From a bacterium (GTDB lineage: Bacteria; Patescibacteriota; Minisyncoccia; Moranbacterales; DUUL01): a DNA stretch of 44,220 nt. Shown piece by piece: positions 6,042 to 33,053 of the stretch. Position 1 is the first letter of the stretch, and every line of letters begins with the position of its first letter. Both the position numbers and the translations under genes were made by a program. Under the pieces are notes generated by a model, which saw nothing but the letters and a program-made list of their open reading frames with translations, had not been told where the DNA came from and searched no databases. The DNA lies in the NCBI GenBank assembly GCA_018675685.1, contig JABGXP010000011.1, positions 1-44,220 of the forward strand, read 5' to 3'.

Positions 6042-7811
6042 CTATTTTTTCTCTACAATTTCTTTTTCCAATAGTTTGTAAAAATCCTCCTTACTCATGG
6101 TCTCATTTTTCCTTTCGCCTCTCCTCCTGACTGCAACTGTGCCATCTTTTTCCTCCTGTTCACCTACAATTATAAGGAAAGGGGCTTTTTGTTTGACGCT
6201 TTCTGCAATTCTTTTGCCGAGCGAATCATCTGAATTAAACATTTCAACTCTGATTCCAAACTGTTTCATCTCCTGCGAAACTAGCTTTGCATAAGCGTCA
6301 AATTTCTCAACAACTGGCAAAATCCCAACTTGAATAGGCGCTAGCCATGTTGGAAATGCTCCAGCATATTTTTCAATCAAGAATGCCATAGTTCTTTCAA
6401 TACAACCGATTGAAGAACGGTGAATAACCATTGGTCTTTGTTTTTCTCCTGCTTTATCAATATAGCTCATTTGAAATTTTTCCGGCATAGCAAAGTCAAT
6501 CTGGATAGTGAAAGCTGTGTCTTCCTTGCCATTAACATTTCTCATCTGTACATCAAGCTTGGGTCCATAAAAAGCTGCTTCATCAACTGCTTCGATATAT
6601 TCCAAGTTCATTTTTTCAAGAATTTTTTGCATTGATGCTTGTGTTCCTTCCCATGCGGATGGATCATTAATGTATTTACCTTTCTTGTTTTCTTTGTCCC
6701 ATTTAGAGAAGCGATACCAATATTCGTCTATTTTCAAAGTTTTCATAACAAATTGTACCAAGTCTACAACTTTCTCGAATTCTTCTTCGACTTGATCGGC
6801 GCGACAAATAATATGAGCATCTGCTAATGTCCAACCACCGGCATGACGAATCAACCCTGAAAGTTCACCGGATTTTTCTTTACGGTAAAGCTTGGCAAGT
6901 TCTGCATAACGCAAGGGAAGTTCTCGGTATGAACGAGGGCGAGAGTTATAGATCTCAAATTGATGTGGGCAGGTCATAGGACGCAAGACATATTGATCAC
7001 CATATAACTCCATCACAGGATACATATCAGCTTGGTAATGTTCCCAATGGCCAGATTTTTTATATAATTCTACCCGAGCGAGATCTGGAGTATGTGTTCT
7101 TAGGTAATCTCTCTTCGTCTCTTCTTCAATAATGAATTTTTCTAATTGCTTCCAAACAGCAGTTCCTTTTGGAGTGAAAAGTGGCAACCCTTTTCCAACT
7201 AAATCAGAAAAAACAAATAAATCCAAATCTTTTCCTATTTTTCGATGGTCCCTCTTTACTGCCTCCTCTTGTTGTTTGAGATATTTTCGCAATTCTTTCT
7301 TATCATTGAAAACTAAACCATAAATTCTTTGAAGTTGCTTGTTTTTTTCGTCACCCTTCCAGTATGCACCAGAAAATTTGGACAAGTTAATTGCAGTTGC
7401 ATTGATTTCTCCAGTTGACTCAAGATGTGGCCCGGAGCAAAGATCTACAAAATTTCCTGATTGATAGATTGTTACATTTTCTTTGCCAGTAATTTGCAAA
7501 TCTTTTATCAATTCCACTTTGTATGGTTGCCCGGCTTCTTCGAAAAGAGAAATTGCTTCATCAACTGAGATGACCCTTTTTTCGAAAGGAAAGTTTCCTT
7601 TGATAATTTCCTTCATTTTACCCTCAAGGATTTCAAGATCCTCTGGAATTAAAGTGCGGGGGAGTTCAAAATCATAATAAAAACCATTTTCGATTGCTGG
7701 TCCAATTGCAAACTTAGTTTCAGGAAACATTTCCAAAACGGCAGCCGCAAGCACATGCGAACAACTGTGTCGAACAATTTCCAATCTCTCCTCACCTTTT
7801 ATTTTTCCCAT
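6042..7811 (-). CDS. thrS: Threonyl-tRNA synthetase (lacks the N-terminal TGS domain)
   Basis: HSCSHVLAAAV editing domain, RPMTCPHQFEIYNSRPRSYRELPLRYAEL, RRRGERKNETM; 589 aa starting directly at the editing domain. Confidence 0.95.
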   Translation of the reverse strand: MGKIKGEERLEIVRHSCSHVLAAAVLEMFPETKFAIGPAIENGFYYDFELPRTLIPEDLEILEGKMKEIIKGNFPFEKRVISVDEAISLFEEAGQPYKVELIKDLQITGKENVTIYQSGNFVDLCSGPHLESTGEINATAINLSKFSGAYWKGDEKNKQLQRIYGLVFNDKKELRKYLKQQEEAVKRDHRKIGKDLDLFVFSDLVGKGLPLFTPKGTAVWKQLEKFIIEEETKRDYLRTHTPDLARVELYKKSGHWEHYQADMYPVMELYGDQYVLRPMTCPHQFEIYNSRPRSYRELPLRYAELAKLYRKEKSGELSGLIRHAGGWTLADAHIICRADQVEEEFEKVVDLVQFVMKTLKIDEYWYRFSKWDKENKKGKYINDPSAWEGTQASMQKILEKMNLEYIEAVDEAAFYGPKLDVQMRNVNGKEDTAFTIQIDFAMPEKFQMSYIDKAGEKQRPMVIHRSSIGCIERTMAFLIEKYAGAFPTWLAPIQVGILPVVEKFDAYAKLVSQEMKQFGIRVEMFNSDDSLGKRIAESVKQKAPFLIIVGEQEEKDGTVAVRRRGERKNETMSKEDFYKLLEKEIVEKK

Positions 7812-7851: not shown

Positions 7852-8075
7852 AATAAAAAACCTCATCTCAGAATATATCATCAAATACTCAACACAGCAG
7901 TGAAGGGTATTTTTAAATACATTCTGAGACGAGGTTTCTCGCGGTTCCACTCAGATTCCTAGAAGACTTTTCTTCCAAACTCTTGTTTATTTGTTCTGTG
8001 ATTTAGGCGGAAGATTAACTCCGCGTCAGATAACATATGGTTGGTAGCCACATCAATCATCACAAGATGAACTGT
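7852..8075 (-). promoter_or_regulatory. T-box riboswitch leader of thrS (transcription-attenuation type)
   Basis: Minus strand: TCTGAG-TGGAACC-GCG-agaaacct-CGT-CTCAGA antiterminator with a 7-nt TGGAACC bulge. Competing terminator CCTCGTCTCAGAAT...ATTCTGAGATGAGG-TTTTTT. Stem III-like hairpin GGAAGA-AAAG-TCTTCT just upstream. Ends about 40 nt before the thrS ATG. Confidence 0.93.
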
Positions 8076-8079
8076 TTTT

Positions 8080-8107
8080 ATTCTAAGTCTTTTGTGATTT
8101 TTGTCAA
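8080..8107 (-). promoter_or_regulatory. Putative sigma70-type promoter for the T-box/thrS transcript
   Basis: Minus strand TTGACA (8107-8102), 16 nt, TAGAAT (8085-8080). Confidence 0.65.
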
Positions 8108-31175: not shown

Positions 31176-32189
31176 TTATTCTTTTTCTAGCGTTGCTCTT
31201 ATAACCAACCTCTTCCAAGTTGTATTAAGAGGCCAACAAGTCACCAAGGTGACCACGGGTTCTTCACTACTTTCAAAAATTGAAGGATCATCAGCTTTAA
31301 CAACATCTTTGTTTTTAATGACAAAGTTGTGTTCAAAGGATTTCCCGTTTCGCTGGGTTGTTTTTATTGTAATCTTATCACCGAGCTCTAAGTTGTTTAT
31401 TTTTTTAAAAATATGATTATATTCACCTTTCGCCCAAAGATAGTTACTGGAGTGTCCAGAAATAACAGTATTTCCATTTTGCGTGGGAACCCCAGTTGCT
31501 GGGAGTCTTACTACACCCTCTTCTAGATCTTTAAGCAATTCTTTGTCATCAAGACTTTTTGACCAAACAATTGGTGCATCGACGTCAATTTTCTGGATTG
31601 AAAGTGAAAAGTTTGGTCGGACGTCACCGGCAGCTGTTGGATCATAGCCATTTTTAATCTCTTGCGCATCACTAAAACTATCTCCATCGGAGTCTTTCTT
31701 GAAAGGGTCTGTATGATGTGCAAATTCTAAATAATTGGGTAGCATGTCCTGATCCTGATCCTTGTCCCGATCATTTTCTTTGATACTTAGACCAACTTCT
31801 GTTTCCCAGAAATCTGGCAATCCGTCTTGATCTGTATCAAGCTTTCCCTCACCAATTGGATTATAGCCATCACGAACCTCTTTTCCGTCTCCATATCCAT
31901 CACCATCTGTATCTGGATTTAAGGGATTTGTGGAATTTTCATATTCAGCTAGTAAAGTCAGCCCATCATCGTCAACATCAGACTCTGTTTCTGATTCATT
32001 TTCCAAATCAATTGAGTATCGTTTGAGCCAAGATGTTGGAATCTCACTTTTTTGTCCAAAAGTATTATCACAAATAGAACGAAAGGTTCCGCTAAAAGTA
32101 CCTTTAAAATCAAAATTCAAAAGATAGAAAACAAAAACAGACAGAATGACTAGAGCGATAATGCTAAGAGTTTTTTTCATTATTTTCAT
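31176..32189 (-). CDS. Sortase with N-terminal calcium-binding (thrombospondin type-3-like) repeats
   Basis: Repeats DVDDDGLTLLAEYENSTNPLNPDTDGDGYGDGKEVRDGYNP...DSDGDSFSDAQEIKNGYDP; sortase core VISGHSSNY...VVTLVTCWPLNTTWKRLVIRA (His, Cys, Arg). Confidence 0.9.
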   Translation of the reverse strand: MKIMKKTLSIIALVILSVFVFYLLNFDFKGTFSGTFRSICDNTFGQKSEIPTSWLKRYSIDLENESETESDVDDDGLTLLAEYENSTNPLNPDTDGDGYGDGKEVRDGYNPIGEGKLDTDQDGLPDFWETEVGLSIKENDRDKDQDQDMLPNYLEFAHHTDPFKKDSDGDSFSDAQEIKNGYDPTAAGDVRPNFSLSIQKIDVDAPIVWSKSLDDKELLKDLEEGVVRLPATGVPTQNGNTVISGHSSNYLWAKGEYNHIFKKINNLELGDKITIKTTQRNGKSFEHNFVIKNKDVVKADDPSIFESSEEPVVTLVTCWPLNTTWKRLVIRATLEKE

Positions 32190-32269: not shown

Positions 32270-32959
32270 CTAGTAAAGAACCTTTTTAAATTGTTTCAAA
32301 GTTCTTATTGATAGAAGTGAGACTATTCCCGCTACGAAAACTGCAAGTATTCCAGATCCAGTTGCTGGGGTGCTTCGATTAATATAACCAAAATCAGCTT
32401 TTGTATGATCATCATTATCTCCATCTAGATATACCTTTGCTTTGTTGTTAGGCTTTCCATCAGGATCATATACTTGTGTATATCCAGCGACATCACGTCC
32501 TTTAACATAAACTTTATAATCTCCTTCACAAAGATCATCAAATTCATATTTTCCACTTTTGTTTGTGTGAGTTGTTAGTTCTTCATCATCATCGTTATCC
32601 CATCTGTAATCTTCACCAGCCCATTTAAGTGTAATTTTTACATCATCAAGGCCTTTTTCTTCACCGTCTTTAACTCCGTTTTCATTTGCGTCATTCCAAA
32701 CAAGGTTTCCGATTGAACCACTACATTTCGATTTTTTTCTTGATTTTGGCTCAGGTTCAACTTCTGGCTCAGGCTCTGTTGGCTCTGGTTCAGTTGGTTC
32801 AGGTTCCGTTGGTTCCTTGCAAGTTTCGCAGATAAACTCATCAAATTGAGTTTCTTTATCTTTAGACCACTCTTCATATGAAGTGGCAGATGTTTCTTGA
32901 ACAGCAAAAAACGCACTTAGGATGATTGCAACGCAAGCTAGGATAATAACTTTTTTCAT
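32270..32959 (-). CDS. Secreted SdrD B-like domain surface protein with Pro-Glu-rich linker and C-terminal sorting-signal-like tail (start moved to the internal ATG)
   Basis: Signal peptide MKKVIILACVAIILSAFFAVQETSA; EPTEPEPTEPEPTEPEPEVEPEP; IGNLVWNDANENGVKDGEEKGLDDVKITL; C-term STPATGSG-hydrophobic-RTLKQFKK. Confidence 0.88.
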   Translation of the reverse strand: MKKVIILACVAIILSAFFAVQETSATSYEEWSKDKETQFDEFICETCKEPTEPEPTEPEPTEPEPEVEPEPKSRKKSKCSGSIGNLVWNDANENGVKDGEEKGLDDVKITLKWAGEDYRWDNDDDEELTTHTNKSGKYEFDDLCEGDYKVYVKGRDVAGYTQVYDPDGKPNNKAKVYLDGDNDDHTKADFGYINRSTPATGSGILAVFVAGIVSLLSIRTLKQFKKVLY

Positions 32960-33024
32960 AATACTTTTGATAAACTGATTAGTTTTCTTGCCCTTTATTC
33001 TTAAGTTGATTAAGACAATGTTGA

Positions 33025-33053
33025 ACCTTAGCACATCAGGACTAATTTGTCAA
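33025..33053 (-). promoter_or_regulatory. Putative promoter of the surface-protein gene
   Basis: Minus strand TTGACA-17 nt-TAAGGT. Confidence 0.5.

Follow-up and report, generated by a model that had tools for sequence, protein, structure and literature searches.

A T-box-type leader with a predicted unusual decoder domain upstream of thrS in a Patescibacteria genome

The window analysed here, i.e., the whole stretch of 44,220 nucleotides, belongs to a bacterial genome of 1.05 Mb that is 96% complete. Its minus strand carries thrS, encoding a threonine--tRNA ligase of 589 aa (6042..7811; TIGR00418 score of 627 bits for a cut-off of 384). The leader preceding this gene raises the question of whether it is a tRNA-responsive T-box and, if so, with which structure it would read tRNA-Thr. 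A first-pass annotation had proposed a T-box riboswitch controlling thrS in a CPR-type genome; the identity of the gene and the best named relatives of its product, found in Parcubacteria/Moranbacteria, agree with this proposal. Elsewhere on the minus strand of the window, two adjoining genes (31176-32189 and 32270-33034) were judged by eye to encode a sortase-like protein and a secreted-looking protein. The secreted-looking protein ends with TPATGSG and a hydrophobic stretch, resembling a sorting signal.

All leader features lie on the minus strand. Transcription is expected to start near position 8073, downstream of a putative sigma-70-type promoter (8080..8107) identified only by its match to the consensus (TTGACA at 8107-8102 and TAGAAT at 8085-8080; 11 of 12 positions, with a 16-nt spacer). 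Sequences resembling a -10 box also lie 0 to 15 nt 5' of helix P1 (see below) in relatives, yet they constitute weak evidence because this DNA is A+T-rich, and near-zero spacing would cut into P1. Further downstream, direct reading and folding revealed Stem III (7979-7972/7965-7958), which together with the preceding AAGAG (RRRxG; 7984-7980) and the following AA (7957-7956) spans 7956..7984. This arrangement and a terminal G-U pair in helix A2, two criteria taken from a 2020 review (PMC7583486), are present in the window and in most relatives, and AA directly precedes A1 in 24 of 25 relatives. Three thrS leaders of the type described here (L234, L239 and L241) seemingly miss Stem III, a purine-rich run such as AAAGAGAACAAA directly abutting the antiterminator.

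The antiterminator (7923..7955), supported by direct reading, the Rfam model RF00230 and covariation, consists of helix A1 (TCTGAG/CTCAGA; 7955-7950/7928-7923) and helix A2 (GCGAG/CTCGT; 7942-7938/7933-7929, with the G-U pair at 7942/7929), between which lies the 7-nt T-box bulge UGGAACC (7949-7943). Folding also predicts an intrinsic terminator hairpin (7855..7942), the core of which pairs CCTCGTCTCAGAAT (7934-7921) with ATTCTGAGATGAGG (7874-7861), directly followed by a run of six U (T6 in the DNA; 7860-7855). Its 5' strand takes up the 3' strands of A2 and A1, making terminator and antiterminator mutually exclusive. The first-pass annotation had placed the promoter, Stem III hairpin, antiterminator and competing terminator exactly where we find them, and the two comparisons that it had suggested, with RF00230 and with the leaders of relatives, bear it out as well (below). 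It had not noticed the domain at 8064-7997, which contains the threonine codon ACC.

Three results indicate that this leader is more than a chance resemblance. For the 3' half, the folding energy is -53.1 kcal/mol (z = -8.75 relative to shuffled sequences). RF00230 matches the leader at a relaxed threshold with 32.5 bits (E = 2e-5, and 7.1e-6 over the whole genome), a score below the gathering score of 93 bits. Lastly, the antiterminator covaries among 31 thrS leaders: 93.8% of the cells are paired against 73.7% in shuffled alignments, 11 of 11 pairs change on both sides and the UGGAACC bulge is invariant. Helices A1 and A2 were aligned jointly for this purpose, given the high null of A1 pairing alone (33% of random positions). 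Covariation alignments A1 and A2 were hand-made with trimmed loops and alignment A3 was fitted to a model; both procedures favour the structure. Downstream of 89 of 99 T-box cores lies a terminator hairpin ending in a U-run, compared to 22% in shuffles. Matches of micro-RNA families at the leader were rejected as hairpin look-alikes of the terminator.

Nor is the resemblance isolated. The host genome contains four RF00230 matches at E 1e-4, located before ileS, glyS, thrS and a cysK-cysS operon; at E <= 0.01, a match is also present in 45 of 57 relatives. No match exceeds the Rfam gathering cut-off in this order, as searched in these 57 relatives; consequently, routine annotation would miss these T-boxes. 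Judging by N-terminal sequences, the genes located 3' of 86 matches in the order are mainly ileS, glyS, thrS, aspS and cysK. A weak match (L005) overlapping a tRNA-Gln gene was dropped. Two matches (L122 and L130) have a different, longer leader, similar to those of L141, L144, L159 and L165, and precede a gene resembling anthranilate phosphoribosyltransferase/thymidine phosphorylase. At the scale of the phylum, RF00230 matches were found in 129 of 384 Patescibacteria genomes (E <= 0.001), whereas about 0.4 genomes would be expected by chance. Thirteen of the 384 (L201-L213) exceed the gathering score and are probably ordinary long T-boxes. The first-pass annotation had considered horizontal transfer, which these distributions do not support; given the matches in 45 of 57 relatives and 129 of 384 genomes, a system long established in this lineage would fit better. 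The thrS element is nevertheless patchy in Patescibacteria, since no T-box core could be recognised ahead of thrS in the loci of the closest ThrS relatives (L009-L016).

The 5' part of the leader forms a predicted decoder domain (7997..8064), supported by covariation and by a score of 59.3 bits with R1, a covariance model that we built from 10 hand-aligned sequences with trimmed loops. Its elements are ordered P1 – RRUUG – specifier hairpin – P2 – P3 – CUAA – P1'. P1 is formed by strands P1a (8064-8059) and P1b (8002-7997), and the conserved strands are GATTG (RRUUG; 8058-8054) and CTAA (CUAA; 8006-8003). The specifier hairpin S1 (8053-8048/8040-8035) comprises 6 bp and a 7-nt loop, P2 occupies 8034-8025 and P3 pairs 8024-8019 with 8012-8007. 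P2 has only 3 pairs in the window, where the single-sequence fold of the decoder favours a slightly different pairing at this place, and in some relatives P2 is minimal or missing. S1, P2 and P3 are contiguous in most members, with no unpaired bases between them, and a compact junction is therefore likely. By-eye comparison of thrS leaders indicates that the ACC hairpin of the window subtype is enclosed by P1 and is not a K-turn-based Stem I. In a second type of thrS leader (L111, L127, L142, L148, L160, L038 and L049), the ACC hairpin rises from a base resembling a K-turn (UGA / GAG), and P1 does not enclose a P2 and P3.

Covariation supports the decoder junction itself. In the decoder alignment, 93.3% of the cells are paired versus 58.2% in shuffles, and 20 of 20 pairs change on both sides; fitting this alignment to the model favours the structure, yet controls slid along the sequences reach only 34-44% pairing. 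The 15 held-out sequences behave similarly (93.6% versus 59.7%), L242 and L243 being partly misaligned at P3/P1b. These 15 copies beyond the training set comprise L044, L055 and 13 others (L231-L243) retrieved by searching 384 and 289 Patescibacteria genomes, a lower bound since scoring was limited to the best 13-18 candidates in each genome. All 15 lie upstream of thrS, as read from N-terminal sequence, with a GNAT-like gene interposed in L233; the independent count is 13 of 13, as L044 and L055 had already been fetched as thrS loci. No R1 match was obtained from 200 genomes sampled in the phylum to which Clostridium belongs, and searches via loci, covering genomes of Clostridium, other Clostridia and Bacteroidota, gave none either. 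Absence from these groups is weakly evidenced by these searches, because the filter was strict and had no positive control in those genomes.

The leader would recognize tRNA-Thr at two sites. First, the specifier loop (8041..8047) reads CUACCAA, in which ACC (8045-8043) is complementary to the anticodon of the host tRNA-Thr(GGU). All 25 sequences compared have this loop or a close variant, always with ACC. The other leaders of the host genome also display a cognate codon in a hairpin loop, i.e., AUC before ileS, GGC before glyS and UGC before cysK-cysS. A cognate codon occupies the loop in 26 of the 31 leaders for which a Stem I hairpin could be recognised and the gene classified; when the labels were permuted 20,000 times, the count averaged 12.0 and never exceeded 22. 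This test covers part of the leader set, as a simple Stem I hairpin rule recovered only 40 of 86. In the aspS leaders, the specifier loop contains the Asn codon AAC in L118, L106 and L129 and GAC in L094; this pattern would be consistent with an AspRS that charges tRNA-Asn as well. Second, the bulge letter matches the discriminator base. Host tRNA-Thr(GGU), tRNA-Thr(UGU), tRNA-Gly and tRNA-Cys have U73 while tRNA-Ile has A73; as the thrS, glyS and cys leaders present UGGA and the ileS leader UGGU, all four match. By gene, this letter is A in 29 of 29 thrS, 16 of 16 glyS and 5 of 5 cysK leaders, and U in 27 and C in 2 of the 29 ileS leaders.

Taken together, the comparison reveals mutually exclusive predicted structures, covarying or conserved helices, a cognate codon and a matching discriminator base; from these we infer tRNA-Thr binding, sensing of its charging and read-through into thrS. 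We thus consider the leader very likely to be a tRNA-Thr-responsive transcription attenuator of the T-box type, with a probability of roughly 0.9. RNA polymerase would first produce the compact decoder, in which the specifier hairpin, P2 and P3 meet in a junction closed by P1, and the hairpin loop would present ACC to the anticodon GGU of tRNA-Thr. The 3' end of an uncharged tRNA-Thr, U73-C-C-A, would then pair with UGGA in the 7-nt bulge and stabilise the antiterminator, allowing transcription of thrS. When the tRNA is charged or absent, the long terminator hairpin would capture the 3' strands of the antiterminator and transcription would stop at the U6 run.

The main rival is an attenuator paced by ribosomes, in which a short leader peptide containing threonine codons would control the terminator and ACC would merely be one of these codons. 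ACC does lie within an open frame of 34 codons (VMIDVATNHMLS..., window 8063-7959), the length and stop of which are kept in L149 from the same genus, and an in-frame ATG, GTG or TTG precedes ACC in 20 of 25 leaders. However, the identity and position of this start vary, a Shine-Dalgarno-like sequence was seen in 1 of 25 leaders, and most frames end anywhere and contain one or two threonine codons without any run of them. A leader peptide would also leave unexplained the UGGAACC bulge, its match to U73 and the covariation of P1, S1, P2 and P3, making this explanation very improbable. Most changes between the 34-codon frame and its counterpart in L149 are transitions that would also keep the RNA pairs.

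Slightly less credible still is a canonical T-box whose Stem I is ordinary and located at about 8100-8060, where Rfam aligned it, which would leave nothing unusual about the decoder. The RF00230 alignment indeed spans the full model length, from 8100 to 7922, but the 'Stem I' so placed includes the promoter's -10 box (8085-8080), and most of the 72 distal positions of the model have no counterpart in the sequence. The threonine codon ACC falls outside it, in the loop of the covarying domain, which begins at 8064. We reject this placement because of its overlap with the promoter and the omission of the codon. Neither the canonical Clostridium thrS leaders among the searched loci nor the Clostridium genomes gave an R1 match, which also speaks against a canonical T-box. 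Least plausible of all is an autoregulatory operator bound by ThrRS through a hairpin mimicking tRNA-Thr, as in E. coli: the gene is thrS and CU-ACC-AA is laid out like a 7-nt anticodon loop, yet its triplet is a codon for threonine and not an anticodon, leaders preceding other genes display codons of their own, and both T-box bulge and terminator would be left unexplained.

The T-box-type attenuator thus being the preferred reading, we predict with reasonable though distinctly lower confidence that its decoder represents an undescribed class, in which up to four helices (P1, the specifier hairpin, P2 and P3) form a junction with conserved RRUUG and CUAA strands that replaces both Stem I and Stem II and grips tRNA-Thr loop-to-loop, through two 7-nt loops. 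Such a contact between CU-ACC-AA and the anticodon loop of tRNA-Thr is suggested by the 7-nt anticodon-loop layout of the specifier loop and its triplet complementary to GGU. A transcriptional family lacking a long elbow-binding Stem I makes it directly testable how little an RNA needs in order to read a tRNA. T-boxes were abundant only in Firmicutes in a 2008 survey (PMC2494555), whereas T-box control is indicated here in one third of the sampled Patescibacteria genomes, which bears on how amino-acid starvation responses are viewed in bacteria with very small genomes. A literature search confined to open-licence papers yielded none reporting T-boxes in Patescibacteria/CPR. The T-box database TBDB mentions matches to the standard model with truncated Stem I (PMC7778990), and some short-Stem-I elements outside Actinobacteria may therefore already be catalogued.

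How does this leader compare to known systems? It shares with the canonical RF00230 T-boxes of Bacillota thrS the 7-nt UGGNACC bulge between A1 and A2, the G-U end of A2, RRRxG-Stem III-AA, the competing terminator, a cognate codon, a bulge letter matching base 73 and the kind of target gene. Unlike them, it has neither the long elbow-binding Stem I nor the Stem II S-turn, and its codon is displayed by the loop of a hairpin that shares a junction, closed by P1, with P2 and P3. In the window, the specifier hairpin of 6 bp and 7-nt loop leaves no room for a distal arm, and no long Stem I with interdigitated T-loops was found. Likewise, only 12 nt separate P1b from RRRxG, with no separate Stem II with an S-turn or Stem IIA/B, and the loops of P2 and P3 show no conserved S-turn motif at the sequence level. 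According to the 2020 review (PMC7583486), T-boxes that act on transcription generally depend on a long Stem I whose apex binds the tRNA elbow, whereas those that act on translation can do without it. A short or ultrashort Stem I displaying the codon in its apical loop is typical of this translational kind, which occurs mostly in Actinobacteria and mainly before ileS. The thrS leader resembles these ultrashort elements in that a very short hairpin bears the codon in its apical loop and no elbow-binding apex is present. They act by sequestering the Shine-Dalgarno sequence, however, whereas the thrS leader ends in a putative intrinsic terminator with U6, and they possess a separate Stem II with an S-turn instead of P1, P2 and P3. 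The ileS leaders of the host genome and its relatives (L001 and others among L089-L119) look closest to the actinobacterial type, with an ultrashort Stem I and apparent Stem II and IIA/B, yet they end in a terminator. By sequence comparison, the charge-sensing half of the thrS leader thus appears to be that of a textbook T-box, while its decoder half departs from the canonical class and matches no T-box type that we found described. In the E. coli thrS operator, a hairpin of the leader RNA mimics tRNA and is bound by ThrRS. Both systems would control thrS through a hairpin in the leader RNA, but the E. coli operator presents an anticodon whereas the present leader displays a codon and would act via a T-box antiterminator and terminator.
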